From IMG/VR virus record IMGVR_UViG_3300024518_001461, positions 1 through 40,154 of that record: 40,154 nucleotides of DNA. One strand, 5' to 3'. Both the position numbers and the translations under genes were made by a program. Under the pieces are notes generated by a model. That model was not told the origin of the DNA. It did no database searches and saw only the letters and a list, made by a program, of their open reading frames with translations. Below are positions 20,240-37,284 of this stretch, piece by piece. Source of the DNA: a virus. Position 1 is the stretch's first letter; each line of letters begins with the position of its first letter.

Positions 20240-21601
20240 ATGGCTATCTTGGAAAATCAAATTGGCGCACCCCTCGCAGTAGCGGGAGCAAAAACCATTG
20301 TAGTAGGTGACTCTATCACACGCCAGCTTGCGGGGGCTTATACGTCCAGTGATGGTATTAGCTTTTCACTTGAGGGGACTGGTTTTAACTGGGTGCAAGC
20401 AATGCTCGGTTATCCATTCACTCATAATATACAAAAAAATTATGGTGATAATAATGAAGTAACTGGAAAGCTCGGTTACAATAAGGGTATTGGCGGTGAT
20501 AAGGCCGCAGATGTGCGCGCACGATTGCAAGCTGATGTATTAGCATTGAATCCCGCGCTGGTGTTCTTTTTAGTTGGCACGAATGACATTAAAGCAAACA
20601 CCCCACTAAACGACATCATAACAGATTGGAAATACTGCGTAGATCAAATCCTCGCTATTAACGCTTCTTTGGTGGTTTACACCGTGATGCCAAGAAGTAC
20701 GGATCTAGATTGGGATGATAATGCAGAGCGACTAGTTCTATTTGAGTTTAACAATTTCATCAGAACTCATGTTGCTACATTGCAAGCAGAAGGCAAGAAA
20801 ATCGCACTTTCCGACCCGTGGGATAATATGCGTAACTGGTTCGGTGACGGTTATACAGCAGCCACCACCACCTTTAAAGATGGCGTACATCCTAACGTTA
20901 GGGGTGGCTATTTTTCAGCACTAGCCACACTGCCCATCTTTCAAGGTTTGAAGAACCTAGACCGCCACTATAAGAGCGTTTTAACTGATATCTGGAACGC
21001 CACGACTAATCCTTACGGTAATATAGCGCCAAACCCTGATTTAAGCGGTACGGGCGGCACCGTTTCTGATGGCACTGGAACTATTGCGGATGATTGGCGA
21101 GTTCAGCATTTCGCAGGAAGCAATAGCGTGGGCGCTGTTAGTATGGTTGATGCTCCTAATGGCGGTGATGGTAAAGCTATAAAGCTCACAATTACAAGCG
21201 ATGGAAATGGTACTGACAATGAGCGCTGGTTAGTGTATCAAAGCAGTTACACGACAGGTGATGCAGAAGGTGTAATAGATGGCAACACATACCGCGCTCA
21301 GGCTCGCGTATGGGTGACGAATATCACTGGCGAGCTATGGAAGCAAACGCATCTACAGTTCTTTGATGCAGATGGTGATCGTGATGTTTGGGCTGGTTTA
21401 GGTAATAATAGTGACGTTCCGTTACCAGCGGACGATTACGATAGATTGTTAATCACACCACAAACCACTCTTGACGCAAGCGCTGATCGGGTTCGTTTGG
21501 AGTTTGATACGTACTTAGATGGCACAGTAGCGGGATCGTTTGATGTTTACATCTGGCACCCTGATTTTAGATATTTGGAGGCGGTTCCACCGTTGGTTTA
21601 G
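20240..21601 (+). CDS. tail appendage with SGNH/GDSL hydrolase domain
   Basis: The SGNH blocks are clear: block I VVGDSIT with nucleophile S25, block III GTND (113-116), and block V DGVH with D214 and H217; G84-G86 in NKGIGGD gives the block II glycine. Residues 250-453 form a beta-rich carbohydrate-binding-like module (WLVYQSSYTTGD). The family removes O-acetyl groups, so the likely role is deacylation of the host O-antigen or capsule during adsorption. It is in the tail-appendage cluster just before the second appendage gene. Confidence 0.85.
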   Translation: MAILENQIGAPLAVAGAKTIVVGDSITRQLAGAYTSSDGISFSLEGTGFNWVQAMLGYPFTHNIQKNYGDNNEVTGKLGYNKGIGGDKAADVRARLQADVLALNPALVFFLVGTNDIKANTPLNDIITDWKYCVDQILAINASLVVYTVMPRSTDLDWDDNAERLVLFEFNNFIRTHVATLQAEGKKIALSDPWDNMRNWFGDGYTAATTTFKDGVHPNVRGGYFSALATLPIFQGLKNLDRHYKSVLTDIWNATTNPYGNIAPNPDLSGTGGTVSDGTGTIADDWRVQHFAGSNSVGAVSMVDAPNGGDGKAIKLTITSDGNGTDNERWLVYQSSYTTGDAEGVIDGNTYRAQARVWVTNITGELWKQTHLQFFDADGDRDVWAGLGNNSDVPLPADDYDRLLITPQTTLDASADRVRLEFDTYLDGTVAGSFDVYIWHPDFRYLEAVPPLV

Positions 21602-28330: not shown

Positions 28331-28518
28331 TACTGGTACTCACTGCAATGTAAAACCGATTGCAGCCCCTTATCATACGTTTGATCGCATTGCAGCTTGA
28401 TCTCGTCATAATGACTAGAAACACCTGCATAAAACACCATATTCATAATCAGATTCGCCGCTAGAAATAGGCCGATAAGCGCTATTACTGGCATGAAGTT
28501 ACGGTTTAGGTAATCCAT
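28330..28518 (-). CDS. small membrane protein (62 aa)
   Basis: Residues about 9-31 (MPVIALIGLFLAANLIMNMV) form one membrane helix; the periplasmic-like tail has two cysteines (LQCDQTY, LHCSEY) that could form a disulfide. It is coupled to both neighbours by overlapping start and stop codons. This is the third short membrane or lipid-anchored gene within 1 kb, hinting at an envelope-directed cluster. Confidence 0.6.
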   Translation of the reverse strand: MDYLNRNFMPVIALIGLFLAANLIMNMVFYAGVSSHYDEIKLQCDQTYDKGLQSVLHCSEYQ

Positions 28519-28874
28519 TACACTTGCCCCCGATACATCATAGAAACGTCTTTCTCAACACCGTCATCTTCGCCGGGAAATTCAGCGTCAATCATAATAT
28601 CGCCATAGTAATCTGTTACCCAATCTAAGAACAGCTTACTTAACTCATTATCTAGCGTGTCATTAGCATCACTGCCAAGCACTTCCAATGAATCGCGGTA
28701 TGATTTTCCAACCTTATCGCTAACTGGATAGCTACGCGAGCGCTTTTCTAGCACCACCTGTAACTCTATTAGAGCTGGCATAGCGTTGTTGATGATCTTA
28801 TTTTTAGTTGAGCGAACCAGACCCAGTATATATTGCCTCTCGGCTGCTATTTCTTCGTGTGTTTCAAATGTCAT
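28518..28874 (-). CDS. hypothetical protein (118 aa)
   Basis: The product starts with MTFETHEEIAAERQYILGLV and is helical through residue 55, followed by an acidic C-terminal half (DTLDNELSKLFLDWVTDYYG). It begins 2 bases after the stop of the ATPase-like gene, so it is probably co-expressed with it from the promoter at 30093-30121. No domain is recognised. Confidence 0.62.
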   Translation of the reverse strand: MTFETHEEIAAERQYILGLVRSTKNKIINNAMPALIELQVVLEKRSRSYPVSDKVGKSYRDSLEVLGSDANDTLDNELSKLFLDWVTDYYGDIMIDAEFPGEDDGVEKDVSMMYRGQV

Positions 28875-28875
28875 T

Positions 28876-30066
28876 TTATGCCGCCTTACTGTATTTATTT
28901 TTCACGATTGAATTATTTAAATCTACGAGCCTTACAACTTGCTCGAATAAATAGTTCTGCATGGGTCTTTCGCAATCTCGGTAATGGTGCTTTAAATGAA
29001 CCCATTCCTCAATCAAAGTTGCTTTGAGCATTTCCAGACCACCCATAAGGAAGCATTTCTCAGATAAGAATATTACACCACCCGCCGCCTGACCTAGTGC
29101 ATCATTTTTTAAGATACTTACCGTTCTAATCGGGAACTCATCCACCATAAACCCCGCCATTTTCACTGAAAATATAGCATCATTAAGAATCTCTTTCTGA
29201 TATTCGTTAAGCGTAAAATCTACTAACGGCGCTGCTGGCTCATTGCGCTCCATGTAACTTAAAAGGTAAGCATTATTACACAAATCTCTATTAGCCCTCG
29301 CCACCTCCATAAACTCAAGGCTTGGGGAAATACTGCAATAATCGAAATCAATACGTGACTCGAACACCCCCGTATCCGCTGTTACAATACTCCTCAAAAC
29401 CTCCTTATCAGTAACCTTCGCAATAATGTCTGCACATATTTTATATACTTGGTGGGTGTATTTTATTTGGCGATCTTCTGTTAAGTCACAATAACCAGTG
29501 GAGTCACTATAGGAATAAATACTTGGCATGCCCTCGTATTTCCAGACACAGACCCCTTTAGAAAAAAAGCTACCACCGCCATTATATATACCATCTGAAA
29601 TTGGCAGCCTCTCACCTATAAAAATTGAATCTCTGGCTTTATGGATACTTTCAATCTCACCACCAGCCACCACAACAAATGTTTTACCCTCAGTGTGTTC
29701 TGGTAAAGAATTTATAACACAAGCGCCTCCACCTTCATCCTTAGCATTTGAATACAACTCTCTATAAGCCATCCATGGCTCCCATGTTTTACCTAATTCA
29801 GTGGTAAAAGGTATTTGCTCCCCATTCATGGTAATAAAATCAAAAGATTTTCCCTTTAGTGTTACAGACTTCTTACCGAAGTGCATAACCTCACCATCCG
29901 AATAGATAGAGACTTTCGCACCTTGGCGGATTAAAATAGCAATGGCATATTTTAATCCTGTACCGAAAAACCCTATACAGGAATTATCACTCTTAACTGA
30001 TACGCCAAAACTTTTAATAAACTCAGGCTCTAGTATTCCAGTATTTTCAAAACTTATAAACTTCAT
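28876..30066 (-). CDS. putative permuted GHKL ATPase with degenerate zincin C-terminus
   Basis: The N-terminus has NTG (residues 8-10), then a lid-like FGVSVK and IGFFGTGLKYA (31-41), matching motifs I and II of Hsp90/MORC-type GHKL ATPases. The N-box-like ELYSNAKDEG lies after them (103-112), whereas normal GHKL proteins have it before; this implies a circular permutation. At the C-terminus LIEEWVHLKHH (351-361), preceded by GGVIFLSEK, looks like a metallopeptidase helix in which the first His of HExxH is Glu. I recall similar unnamed phage proteins. It has its own promoter and a strong GGAG site. Confidence 0.65.
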   Translation of the reverse strand: MKFISFENTGILEPEFIKSFGVSVKSDNSCIGFFGTGLKYAIAILIRQGAKVSIYSDGEVMHFGKKSVTLKGKSFDFITMNGEQIPFTTELGKTWEPWMAYRELYSNAKDEGGGACVINSLPEHTEGKTFVVVAGGEIESIHKARDSIFIGERLPISDGIYNGGGSFFSKGVCVWKYEGMPSIYSYSDSTGYCDLTEDRQIKYTHQVYKICADIIAKVTDKEVLRSIVTADTGVFESRIDFDYCSISPSLEFMEVARANRDLCNNAYLLSYMERNEPAAPLVDFTLNEYQKEILNDAIFSVKMAGFMVDEFPIRTVSILKNDALGQAAGGVIFLSEKCFLMGGLEMLKATLIEEWVHLKHHYRDCERPMQNYLFEQVVRLVDLNNSIVKNKYSKAA

Positions 30067-30092
30067 TGTTTTCTCCTTGTTTCCTTAATAGC

Positions 30093-30121
30093 ACTATATT
30101 CCAAAGATGAAACTAATGCAA
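30093..30121 (-). promoter_or_regulatory. leftward sigma-70-like promoter
   Basis: Read on the - strand: TTGCAT (complement of 30116-30121), 17-base spacer, TATAGT (complement of 30093-30098). The spacer holds TTAGTTTCA next to the -35. The transcript would begin near 30086 and lead into the ATPase-like gene. The same layout occurs at 31028-31056 and 39507-39535. Confidence 0.75.
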
Positions 30122-31361: not shown

Positions 31362-31400
31362 AAACCCCGCGCCTATATTATTAAGCGCGGGGTTTCTTTT
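31362..31400. terminator. strong bidirectional terminator
   Basis: AAACCCCGCGC (31362-31372) and GCGCGGGGTTT (31385-31395) form an 11-bp perfect stem with a 12-base loop. Rightward it is followed by CTTTT, ending the regulator gene; leftward by GGGGTTTTTAC, ending the operon that stops at 31399. It separates two leftward transcription units. Confidence 0.9.
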
Positions 31401-31656
31401 AGTCTAATTCTGGCAACATACCCATTGCCCGCATATAAACATCAAGCATGTATTCTTGTTCTTCCCGCTCTGCTGCTTCCAGCTTACGGAGTTTGATGAT
31501 TGAGCGAAGGGCTTTAGTGTCGTACCCGTTGCCCTTAGCTTCTGCATAGACGTCTTTCACATCTGCTGCAATGTTAGCCTTGTCTTGCTCTAGTCGCTCA
31601 ATACGCTCCACAATGCTGCGAAGTTGATCTGCGGTAATTCCGTTAATAGTAGTCAT
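31399..31656 (-). CDS. GapR-like protein (DUF2312)
   Basis: The start at 31656 (MTTINGITADQL) follows AAGGAG. Residues 9-60 match GapR/DUF2312 almost word for word: LRSIVERIERLEQDKANIAA and then DVYAEAKGNGYDTKALR. GapR is an alphaproteobacterial nucleoid protein that forms clamps on overtwisted or AT-rich DNA and helps topoisomerases ahead of replication. Phage copies could help phage replication or displace the host protein. The family's strong host bias is the best host clue in this window. Length (85 aa) is normal. Confidence 0.9.
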   Translation of the reverse strand: MTTINGITADQLRSIVERIERLEQDKANIAADVKDVYAEAKGNGYDTKALRSIIKLRKLEAAEREEQEYMLDVYMRAMGMLPELD

Positions 31657-31660
31657 GTTT

Positions 31661-31960
31661 TTATTCTCCTTGTTTGACAAATACGCCGTTAATCATTGAA
31701 CCTTTGCGCTTGGCAATCACGTCATACGCGCCTTGCAAGCAATCCTGAACGCTAGTGCCGCGCAATTCCGCTAAGATGATAAGCGTCACGATAATGTCGC
31801 CAATTGCGTCCTCAACCTCGGCCTGATTATCCTCAATTAAATATCGCGCTAATTCGCCGACTTCTTCCATTGTTTTTTCGAATTGGCTAGATGGCGTGGC
31901 TTTCTCTAAAATACCCTTATTGCCCGCCCATTCTAAAACTTTTTGTGCTAATTCATCCAT
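31661..31960 (-). CDS. MazG-like nucleotide pyrophosphohydrolase
   Basis: The all-alpha NTP-PPase motif is present: MEEVGEL (EExxE, residues 31-37) and VEDAIGDIIVTL with E50, D51 and D55, which would bind magnesium. The 99-residue single-domain form is typical of phages. Such enzymes hydrolyse dNTPs or lower alarmone levels during infection. It overlaps the NinB-like gene by 8 bases and is followed by GapR. Confidence 0.85.
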   Translation of the reverse strand: MDELAQKVLEWAGNKGILEKATPSSQFEKTMEEVGELARYLIEDNQAEVEDAIGDIIVTLIILAELRGTSVQDCLQGAYDVIAKRKGSMINGVFVKQGE

Positions 31961-36066: not shown

Positions 36067-37284
36067 ATGAAAATTAAAAATGGAATGGGCGTAAACGTCC
36101 TAGAGGCTGCTAAGGAGAGAATAAGCTATACTTTTGACGAGTTTGATAAAATTGTAGTTAGCTTTTCTGGCGGTAAAGATTCAAGTGTTATGCTTCACTT
36201 GGCTGCGCAAGAGGCAATAAAGAGAGAGCGTAGGATTTGCGTTTTGATTATTGATATGGAAGCGCAGTACAGGCATACAATTCAGCACTTACACGAAATG
36301 CTAGATTGTTACGGCGATGTTTTTGACGTTCATTGGGTTTGCCTCCCTATGAATTTAAGAAATGCGTCTAGCAACTTTGAGCCAGTTTGGACTTGCTGGG
36401 ATGATGAGAAAGAGGCTGATTGGGTTCGCGAGCTACCTAAGCACAAAGGGGTTATCTCAGATCTGGATTATTACCCGTTTTTTGAAAAGGGTATGGAATT
36501 TGAGGAGTTTGTGGTTTTATTTGCTGAGTGGTATTCGGACGGCGAAAACACAGCTTGCCTTGTCGGTATTCGCGCGGATGAGAGTTTAAATCGTTTCAGG
36601 ACTATCGCAATTTTTGATAAAGAGATGTATAACAACAAGAGATGGTCAACAAAAGTTACGGAGTACGCTTACAATATTTACCCTATCTATGACTGGCACA
36701 CTCGTGACATTTGGAGGTTCCACGCGAAGAACCCTGATCTACCGTACAATCAAGTTTACGACCTTATGCAAAAAGCGGGTGTGAAATTAAGTCAACAAAG
36801 ACTGTGCCAACCTTATGGTGACGACCAACGGCGCGGGTTGTGGCTGTACCATATATTGGAGCCTGAAACGTGGTATAAACTCATAACACGCGTAAATGGC
36901 GTTAACAGTGGCGCGTTATACATTCAAGAAACTGGTAATATAAACGGTTATAATAAAATCAACTTGCCTGATGGGCATACTTATAAAAGTTTTTGTAACT
37001 TGCTGCTAGCAACTATGCCTAAAGTGACGCGTGAGCATTTTACAGGGAAATTTAGATCTTTTATGAAAGGCTGGGCTGGTCGTGGCTATACTGAGGGTCT
37101 ACCAGATTATGCCCCAAAAGTTTTAGAGGACGCTCAATGGGCACCGTCATGGCGCAGAATGTGTAAGGTTTTATTGCGGAATGACTGGTGGTGCAAGGGG
37201 CTTGGCATGACGCAGCCTAAAAGCGAAGCCTATGGAAAGTATTTAAAGATTAAAAAAGAAAAGAAAGCACTTCAAGATGGATAA
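36067..37284 (+). CDS. PAPS-reductase-like PP-loop protein (IbrA-like, DUF3440)
   Basis: The PP-loop SGGKDS is at residues 34-39, in the standard position after VVSFS, and is followed by MLHLAAQEAIKRERRICVLI and the IDMEAQY strand; this is the PAPS reductase/DUF3440 fold. Cysteines C178 (NTACLVGIR) and C246 (LCQPYGDDQRRG) are candidates for cofactor binding. Related enzymes activate sulfate or thiolate nucleic acids. With the ParB-like partner the trio may add sulfur or another group to phage DNA, which is unproven. The length of 405 residues is usual. Confidence 0.82.
   Translation: MKIKNGMGVNVLEAAKERISYTFDEFDKIVVSFSGGKDSSVMLHLAAQEAIKRERRICVLIIDMEAQYRHTIQHLHEMLDCYGDVFDVHWVCLPMNLRNASSNFEPVWTCWDDEKEADWVRELPKHKGVISDLDYYPFFEKGMEFEEFVVLFAEWYSDGENTACLVGIRADESLNRFRTIAIFDKEMYNNKRWSTKVTEYAYNIYPIYDWHTRDIWRFHAKNPDLPYNQVYDLMQKAGVKLSQQRLCQPYGDDQRRGLWLYHILEPETWYKLITRVNGVNSGALYIQETGNINGYNKINLPDGHTYKSFCNLLLATMPKVTREHFTGKFRSFMKGWAGRGYTEGLPDYAPKVLEDAQWAPSWRRMCKVLLRNDWWCKGLGMTQPKSEAYGKYLKIKKEKKALQDG

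Follow-up and report, generated by a model that had tools for sequence, protein, structure and literature searches.

A probable circularly permuted GHKL domain joined to an altered minigluzincin-like domain in a family of phage proteins

The virus record IMGVR_UViG_3300024518_001461 of IMG/VR, analysed here from position 1 to 40,154 (the whole stretch of 40,154 nucleotides is referred to as the window), carries on its minus strand a gene at 28876..30066 whose 396-residue product belongs to the phage protein family PHROG 8203. In this protein a GHKL (Bergerat-type) domain is very probably circularly permuted, and it is followed by a transducer-like domain and by a C-terminal minigluzincin-like domain with altered ligand positions. 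The explanation of the whole that we consider probable is that of an early phage protein built from these three modules, which would be switched by nucleotide and would serve DNA recombination or replication; the recombination or replication role, proposed from gene positions, is by itself a tentative assignment. An earlier note, drawn up from the sequence alone, had singled out the gene, and the gene is indeed real: the frame is open from an ATG at 30066 to a stop that ends at 28876, the plus frame across the same positions is crowded with stops, and the product is a member of a large phage family.

Evidence for circular permutation of the GHKL domain

The permuted domain, delimited by profile pieces and by the order of its elements, spans residues 1-118 (29713..30066; all features of the gene lie on the minus strand). 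Its N-box, RELYSNAKDE (residues 102-111, 29734..29763), stands downstream of the G2 box, IGFFGTGLK (residues 31-39, 29950..29976), and a G1-like motif, N8-x-G10 (30037..30045), occupies an N-terminal position. In an alignment of 73 members of the permuted family, from which the conservation figures are taken, the N-box is present in 73/73 sequences and G32, F34, G35, G37, K39, W95, R102, E103, N107, D110 and E111 are invariant; E103, N107 and D110 reproduce the ExxxNxxD pattern of GHKL N-boxes, and the G2 box with its invariant glycines is of the GxxGxG-like type. The motifs quoted in the earlier note (NTG at residues 8-10, FGVSVK, IGFFGTGLKYA at 31-41, ELYSNAKDEG at 103-112 and LIEEWVHLKHH) were all found where it had placed them, and given the invariance across the alignment they are well beyond chance.

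The normal order of these motifs is seen in a sister family, PHROG 6077. The window protein has a full-length profile match to PHROG 8203 (residues 1-383, E 9.8e-73) and a short one to PHROG 6077 (E 7.6e-11), two PHROGs without an assigned function. A weak hit, the protein of Acinetobacter phage ABPH49 (L014) annotated as a histidine kinase-like ATPase, has an N-terminal N-box, TWKEAVREILQNAID, followed by IGKFGEGLK, and matches PHROG 6077 at E 1e-89 and also PHROG 8203 at E 7e-14; the G2 box of the window protein aligns to the IGxFGEGxK of the sister family. PHROG 6077 is a GHKL family, because the model of one member (L147) matches TRAP1 (5y3o, E 3.5e-5, probability 1.00), topoisomerase VI-B and Hsp90 in a fold search, and because Pfam HATPase_c_3 has matches in 10 of the 43 sister proteins (best E 2e-4). 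Recognising the fold took a structure search; the profile of the sister family, run against PDB sequences, gave nothing real. Members of this family are annotated as 'histidine kinase-like ATPase', 'HATPase' or 'RIIA lysis inhibitor'.

The reversal of motif order that the earlier note had described holds across both families, the N-box lying 70-80 residues after the G2 box in 98/98 permuted members in which both motifs were found, and 50-59 residues before it in 56/56 sister proteins. Alignment of the two family profiles with hhalign resulted in swapped-order alignments, one of permuted residues 4-236 to sister residues 56-253 (E 1e-12, this and the following hhalign E-values each referring to one comparison) and another of permuted 78-153 to sister 9-74 (E 4e-7). 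Cut into pieces, residues 1-77 alone find sister 57-114 (E 2e-12), the N-box piece, residues 78-120, finds sister 11-48 (E 3e-9) and residues 121-250 find sister 138-252 (E 1.3e-5); reciprocally, the sister N-terminal piece finds permuted 78-117 (E 1e-8). As such E-values cover a single comparison, column shuffles were needed, and the N-box piece scored 51.5 against a best of 26.4 among 100 of them, while the reversed N-box piece gave no match to the sister profile. When several thousand neighbouring open reading frames (ORFs) were searched as decoys with hidden Markov models (HMMs), the front, N-box and transducer pieces matched sister proteins only; the zincin piece additionally matched the split-off C-termini of three permuted genes.

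Structure prediction, part of the check that had been suggested for the proposed fold, places Bergerat-type elements with permuted connectivity within residues 1-118 of a confident AlphaFold model (mean predicted local distance difference test score 92.9 for the window protein, 89.1 for the sister L147). The two models were compared element by element, by secondary-structure order. In the permuted protein this order is strand 3-9, helices 14-18 and 36-47, strands 51-56, 59-70, 73-80 and 83-88, helix 97-110 and strand 114-118; in the sister it is strand 12-19, helix 28-41, strands 46-51 and 54-60, helices 66-69 and 89-99 and strands 103-108, 111-120 and 125-134. If sister strand 12-19, helix 28-41 and strand 46-51 are placed behind the other six elements, the two lists agree exactly; in the permuted protein the elements are all there without the N-box helix coming first. 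The cut falls in the hairpin formed by sister strands 46-51 and 54-60, after the N-box, and the old N-terminal strand is joined to the last strand. The AlphaFold model and the profile alignment place this new junction in a tight NG turn at residues 80-84 (29815..29829), between strands 73-80 and 83-88, and in the profile alignment permuted residues 78-88 correspond to canonical 9-19. Beyond the GHKL domain both models share a strand-helix-strands series, the transducer; in the window protein the transducer-like domain (residues 128-216, 29419..29685) is colinear with sister residues 138-252 in the profile alignment given above, and E197 and R199 of its LTEDR motif are invariant. Among viral models in BFVD, six proteins match the permuted model at E < 0.001, and the named ones include a protein of Erwinia phage pEp_SNUABM_01, a phage of the sister family.

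That there is no permutation, segment 97-111 being a chance look-alike of an N-box whose true counterpart is missing, would agree with the failure of the sequence databases and of the PDB sequence search to recognise the domain. This is nevertheless very improbable, as the N-box piece and the sister N-terminus match reciprocally where shuffles fail, the two AlphaFold models agree, and a second N-box was found neither in the intact permuted proteins nor in the DNA up to 900 bp away. Pfam and PADLOC gave no match for the window protein (0 PADLOC families at E 10), NCBIfam gave noise only, and nothing in the PDB sequence search was significant; the rotated order is part of the reason that several hundred phage proteins go unrecognised by Pfam, NCBIfam and PDB sequence searches. 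A literature search for a permuted GHKL, Bergerat or Hsp90-type domain, which did not cover subscription papers, found none.

At least 357 relatives of the permuted family are present in IMG/VR, and contigs of bacterial genomes contribute 19. Yuavirus, Bordetella and Stenotrophomonas phages and Pseudomonas phage AH02 have full-length relatives at 35-39% identity; for those of Synechococcus phages and of phage Simon the identity is about 30-32%. It had been stated that the family is known only as unnamed phage proteins; most relatives are indeed annotated as hypothetical, but a few bear the names HATPase, ATP-binding protein or hydrolase/metallopeptidase.

The altered minigluzincin-like domain

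Residues 285-396 (28879..29214) form the C-terminal minigluzincin-like domain, recognised by Foldseek and by HMM hits. The best Foldseek matches are the minimal gluzincins selecase and projannalysin (probability 0.99-1.00, template modelling (TM) score by target 0.50-0.58), and the HMM matches, which have HExxH in both cases, are Moorella phage MTATph1 (E 5e-8) and L184 (E 5e-6). Gluzincins are defined by HExxH and a Glu as third ligand, in place of which the window protein has E353-E354-W-V-H357 (28996..29010) and Q370 (28957..28959); its motif region reads TLIEEWVHLKHHYRDCERPMQNYLF, that of MTATph1 TLIHETLHKYSGARDCTREFETAW, and the IMG/VR loci L157, L184 and L205 have HEVAH. Thus the first-ligand His is replaced by Glu at position 353 and the third-ligand Glu by Gln at position 370, and E354 (the catalytic Glu), H357 (the second His) and D364 are retained. 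E353, E354 and H357 are conserved in at least 90% of the aligned members, and the Glu/Gln pair, a change from His-His-Glu to Glu-His-Gln, occurs in 86/86 permuted members with a detectable motif. HExxH was not seen in any permuted member.

The substitution of the first catalytic His by Glu, reported in the earlier note for this one protein, is therefore a rule across the family and not the mutation of a single copy, and the relatives that do carry HExxH, four normal-order proteins that also retain the third-ligand Glu, are unpermuted. As to the description of the domain as a degenerate zincin, the zincin origin is upheld by Foldseek and by the HExxH relatives, but the site is conserved and altered rather than decayed. 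A salt bridge between E353 and R367 that would replace the zinc was also entertained, and was dropped as the preferred interpretation because MTATph1 has this Arg beside an intact HExxH (DCTRE) and because position 370 corresponds to the third ligand.

The EExxH domain is missing in R26L (L010), StAshley (L011), L105, L106 and L112, members from alphaproteobacterial phages and genomes in which the permuted GHKL domain is kept. In the related contigs L089, L090 and L091 the protein is split into a 248-residue ORF with the GHKL and transducer domains and a 113-residue zincin ORF 91 nt downstream. The four proteins with a normal-order GHKL domain and an intact HExxH domain (MTATph1, WPA89660, at L206:2986-4326; L157, L184 and L205) may constitute a distinct GHKL-protease family.

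Evolution, gene neighbourhood and expression signals

The permuted proteins group as a single clan (support 1.0), set off by a long stem, in an unrooted tree built on the shared blocks; this fits a single permutation event. The normal order is taken as ancestral because the rest of the GHKL superfamily has it, the tree itself not allowing a root. A protein with an N-box at each end, the intermediate that a duplication and a later deletion should leave behind, was looked for among the collected loci without success.

The permuted and normal-order versions occupy shared gene positions. In 5 permuted loci (AH02, L019, L020, L029 and L061) and in 15 with the normal order, the gene that comes next, at -90 to +52 nt, is phrog_7838, which PHROGs names exonuclease; a Mu Gam-like gene lies about 0.7 kb beyond. 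The sister family includes Pseudomonas phage Ab18, a member of Mesyanzhinovviridae like YuA and M6, and a small YuA gp28-like gene lies directly upstream of both the permuted YuA gp29 and the normal-order Ab18 gene (47 residues matched, E 4e-10). Since they are encoded beside the same genes, the permuted and normal-order proteins probably do the same job. In the window, NinB, MazG, exonuclease-like and recombinase-like genes lie 2-5 kb upstream of the gene and share its strand. For its downstream neighbour (28518-28874), examined as a conserved partner, no relative was found near other family members.

A ribosome-binding site, AAGGAG (30073..30078), read from the sequence, is a good match. The gene had also been credited with a promoter of its own, which the data do not support: the weak promoter-like element TTGCAT-17-TATAGT (30093..30121) agrees with the consensus at just 3/6 and 5/6 positions and is absent from the list of a promoter scan, and that scan gave 7 sites, fewer than the 10.0 of shuffled sequence.

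Other genes recorded in the window are a GapR-like DNA-binding domain protein of a nucleoid-associated family in the early cluster (31399-31680, minus strand, PF10073, E 4.9e-33), a phage-borne PAPS-reductase-like gene (36067-37284, plus strand, PHROG 2302, E 1e-84) and, amid the structural-arm genes, a lipase-like protein (20240-21601, plus strand, PHROG 6102, E 3e-36). No near DNA relative of the window was found among phage records, and a plasmid search with the window protein gave no match.

Proposed mechanism and alternative explanations

The conservation of the N-box and the G2 box argues for nucleotide and Mg binding, and it is proposed that the GHKL domain, of the Hsp90/topoisomerase VI-B type, still binds nucleotide with Mg, E103 acting as general base and N107 as Mg ligand. 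Binding would close the lid, R199 of the transducer would sense the phosphate and the C-terminal half would change shape; R199 is likened here to the middle-domain Arg of Hsp90, which serves as phosphate sensor. The altered zincin would then be a binding module, or a module with an unusually liganded metal, rather than a standard protease, and the whole may be a clamp or remodeller, switched by nucleotide, that serves the recombination or replication of phage DNA. In the models, the strand-exchange dimerisation of Hsp90, GyrB and MutL appears unavailable in its usual form, because the former N-terminal strand sits inside a hairpin and no free N-terminal strap is left. It is rather doubtful that a working nucleotide switch, possibly with a changed base preference and without strand exchange, is coupled to a functional zincin re-liganded as Glu-His-Gln.

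Some observations weigh against the proposal of a permuted, nucleotide-switched recombination or replication protein. The G1 box of GHKL proteins is DxGxG, whereas the permuted family has N8-x-G10, with Asn in 71/73 members. The Asp contacts adenine in GHKL proteins, and yeast Hsp90 no longer binds ATP when the corresponding Asp is changed to Asn. Binding of nucleotide, or its specificity, may therefore differ here; the Asp is also substituted in several normal-order sister members. The permuted protein has no sequence relative in the PDB, and sequential Foldseek of its model against Hsp90 is weak (Hsc82, E 2e-3), which would be expected of a permutant but would not prove one. Genes for single-strand annealing proteins (SSAP), exonucleases, Gam or SSB occur within 2.5 kb in 41/102 permuted loci, a count made without a null for how often early phage genes sit so close, and the other 61/102, the window locus included, have none of the tested recombination families within that distance.

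As to the earlier suggestion of a defence antagonist or host chaperone mimic, the gene context points rather to the recombination module; both ideas can nevertheless be weighed as rivals. The main one keeps the same permuted GHKL fold and assigns it a counter-defence role as proposed for T4 rIIA. Orthologues of rIIA, in which a GHKL ATPase at the N-terminus is joined to a C-terminus that varies, have been placed among the counter-defence systems that are poorly understood (PMC7824862). The early position of the gene, the variation of the C-terminal part in alphaproteobacterial phages, the 'RIIA lysis inhibitor' annotation of one normal-order relative and a weak structural match to KVP40 RIIA (E 2e-3, TM 0.31) agree with such a role. 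Nonetheless, recombination genes adjoin in many lineages, the C-terminal domain is conserved in most members, a partner resembling rIIB was not recognised, the gene downstream of the window gene is unconserved, and PADLOC gives no match, although it addresses defence rather than anti-defence; we therefore regard counter-defence as somewhat unlikely. An Hsp90-like chaperone for phage or host proteins seems quite improbable: among solved folds the sister comes closest to TRAP1 and Hsp90, and the resemblance takes in part of the middle domain, but the Hsp90 C-terminal dimerisation domain is absent, the C-terminus being minigluzincin-like, the free N-terminal strand has been lost through permutation, and the gene context is one of DNA metabolism.

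It is likewise unlikely, if less so than the chaperone, that the protein works as a metallopeptidase that the GHKL domain gates and whose metal site is of an unusual Glu-His-Gln type. The strong conservation of E353, E354, H357, D364 and Q370 and the paired exchange throughout the members with a detectable motif speak for it, since a dead domain would not need the catalytic Glu and the second His. Against this, the domain is not always needed, being missing in R26L, StAshley, L105, L106 and L112, and we know of no gluzincin with Glu and Gln at these two ligand positions.

Comparison with known systems

In GHKL ATPases such as Hsp90, gyrase, MutL and topoisomerase VI, an N-terminal strap or an exchange of strands is coupled to the binding of nucleotide. 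A natural permutant that lacks the strap and keeps the catalytic residues tests directly which connections the mechanism cannot do without. Hundreds of phages carry the permuted protein, which takes the place of its normal-order counterpart at shared gene positions, and annotation pipelines could be corrected for several hundred phage proteins. The paired ligand exchange, together with the unpermuted HExxH relatives, also provides a clean system in which to ask whether a metallopeptidase site has been disabled or re-purposed.

The window protein has in common with Hsp90/TRAP1 and topoisomerase VI-B the N-box, the G2 box, the Bergerat-type elements and a transducer with a conserved Arg; it differs in the rotation of the elements, in the replacement of the G1 Asp by Asn and in having no Hsp90 C-terminal domain. 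PHROG 6077, found in Vequintavirinae and other phages (Ab18 ORF34), shares the GHKL and transducer modules by profile homology and, in several phages, the gene position, but has the N-box first, a free N-terminal strand and usually no zincin domain. MTATph1, L157, L184 and L205 have the full GHKL, transducer and minigluzincin-like architecture in an unpermuted form with HExxH and third-ligand Glu intact. The minigluzincins selecase, projannalysin and proabylysin share the predicted fold of about residues 285-396, with His-His-Glu where Glu-His-Gln is found here. T4 rIIA is also an early phage GHKL protein (PMC7824862); its GHKL domain is N-terminal, its variable C-terminus is of another kind, and the structural match, to KVP40 RIIA, is weak.
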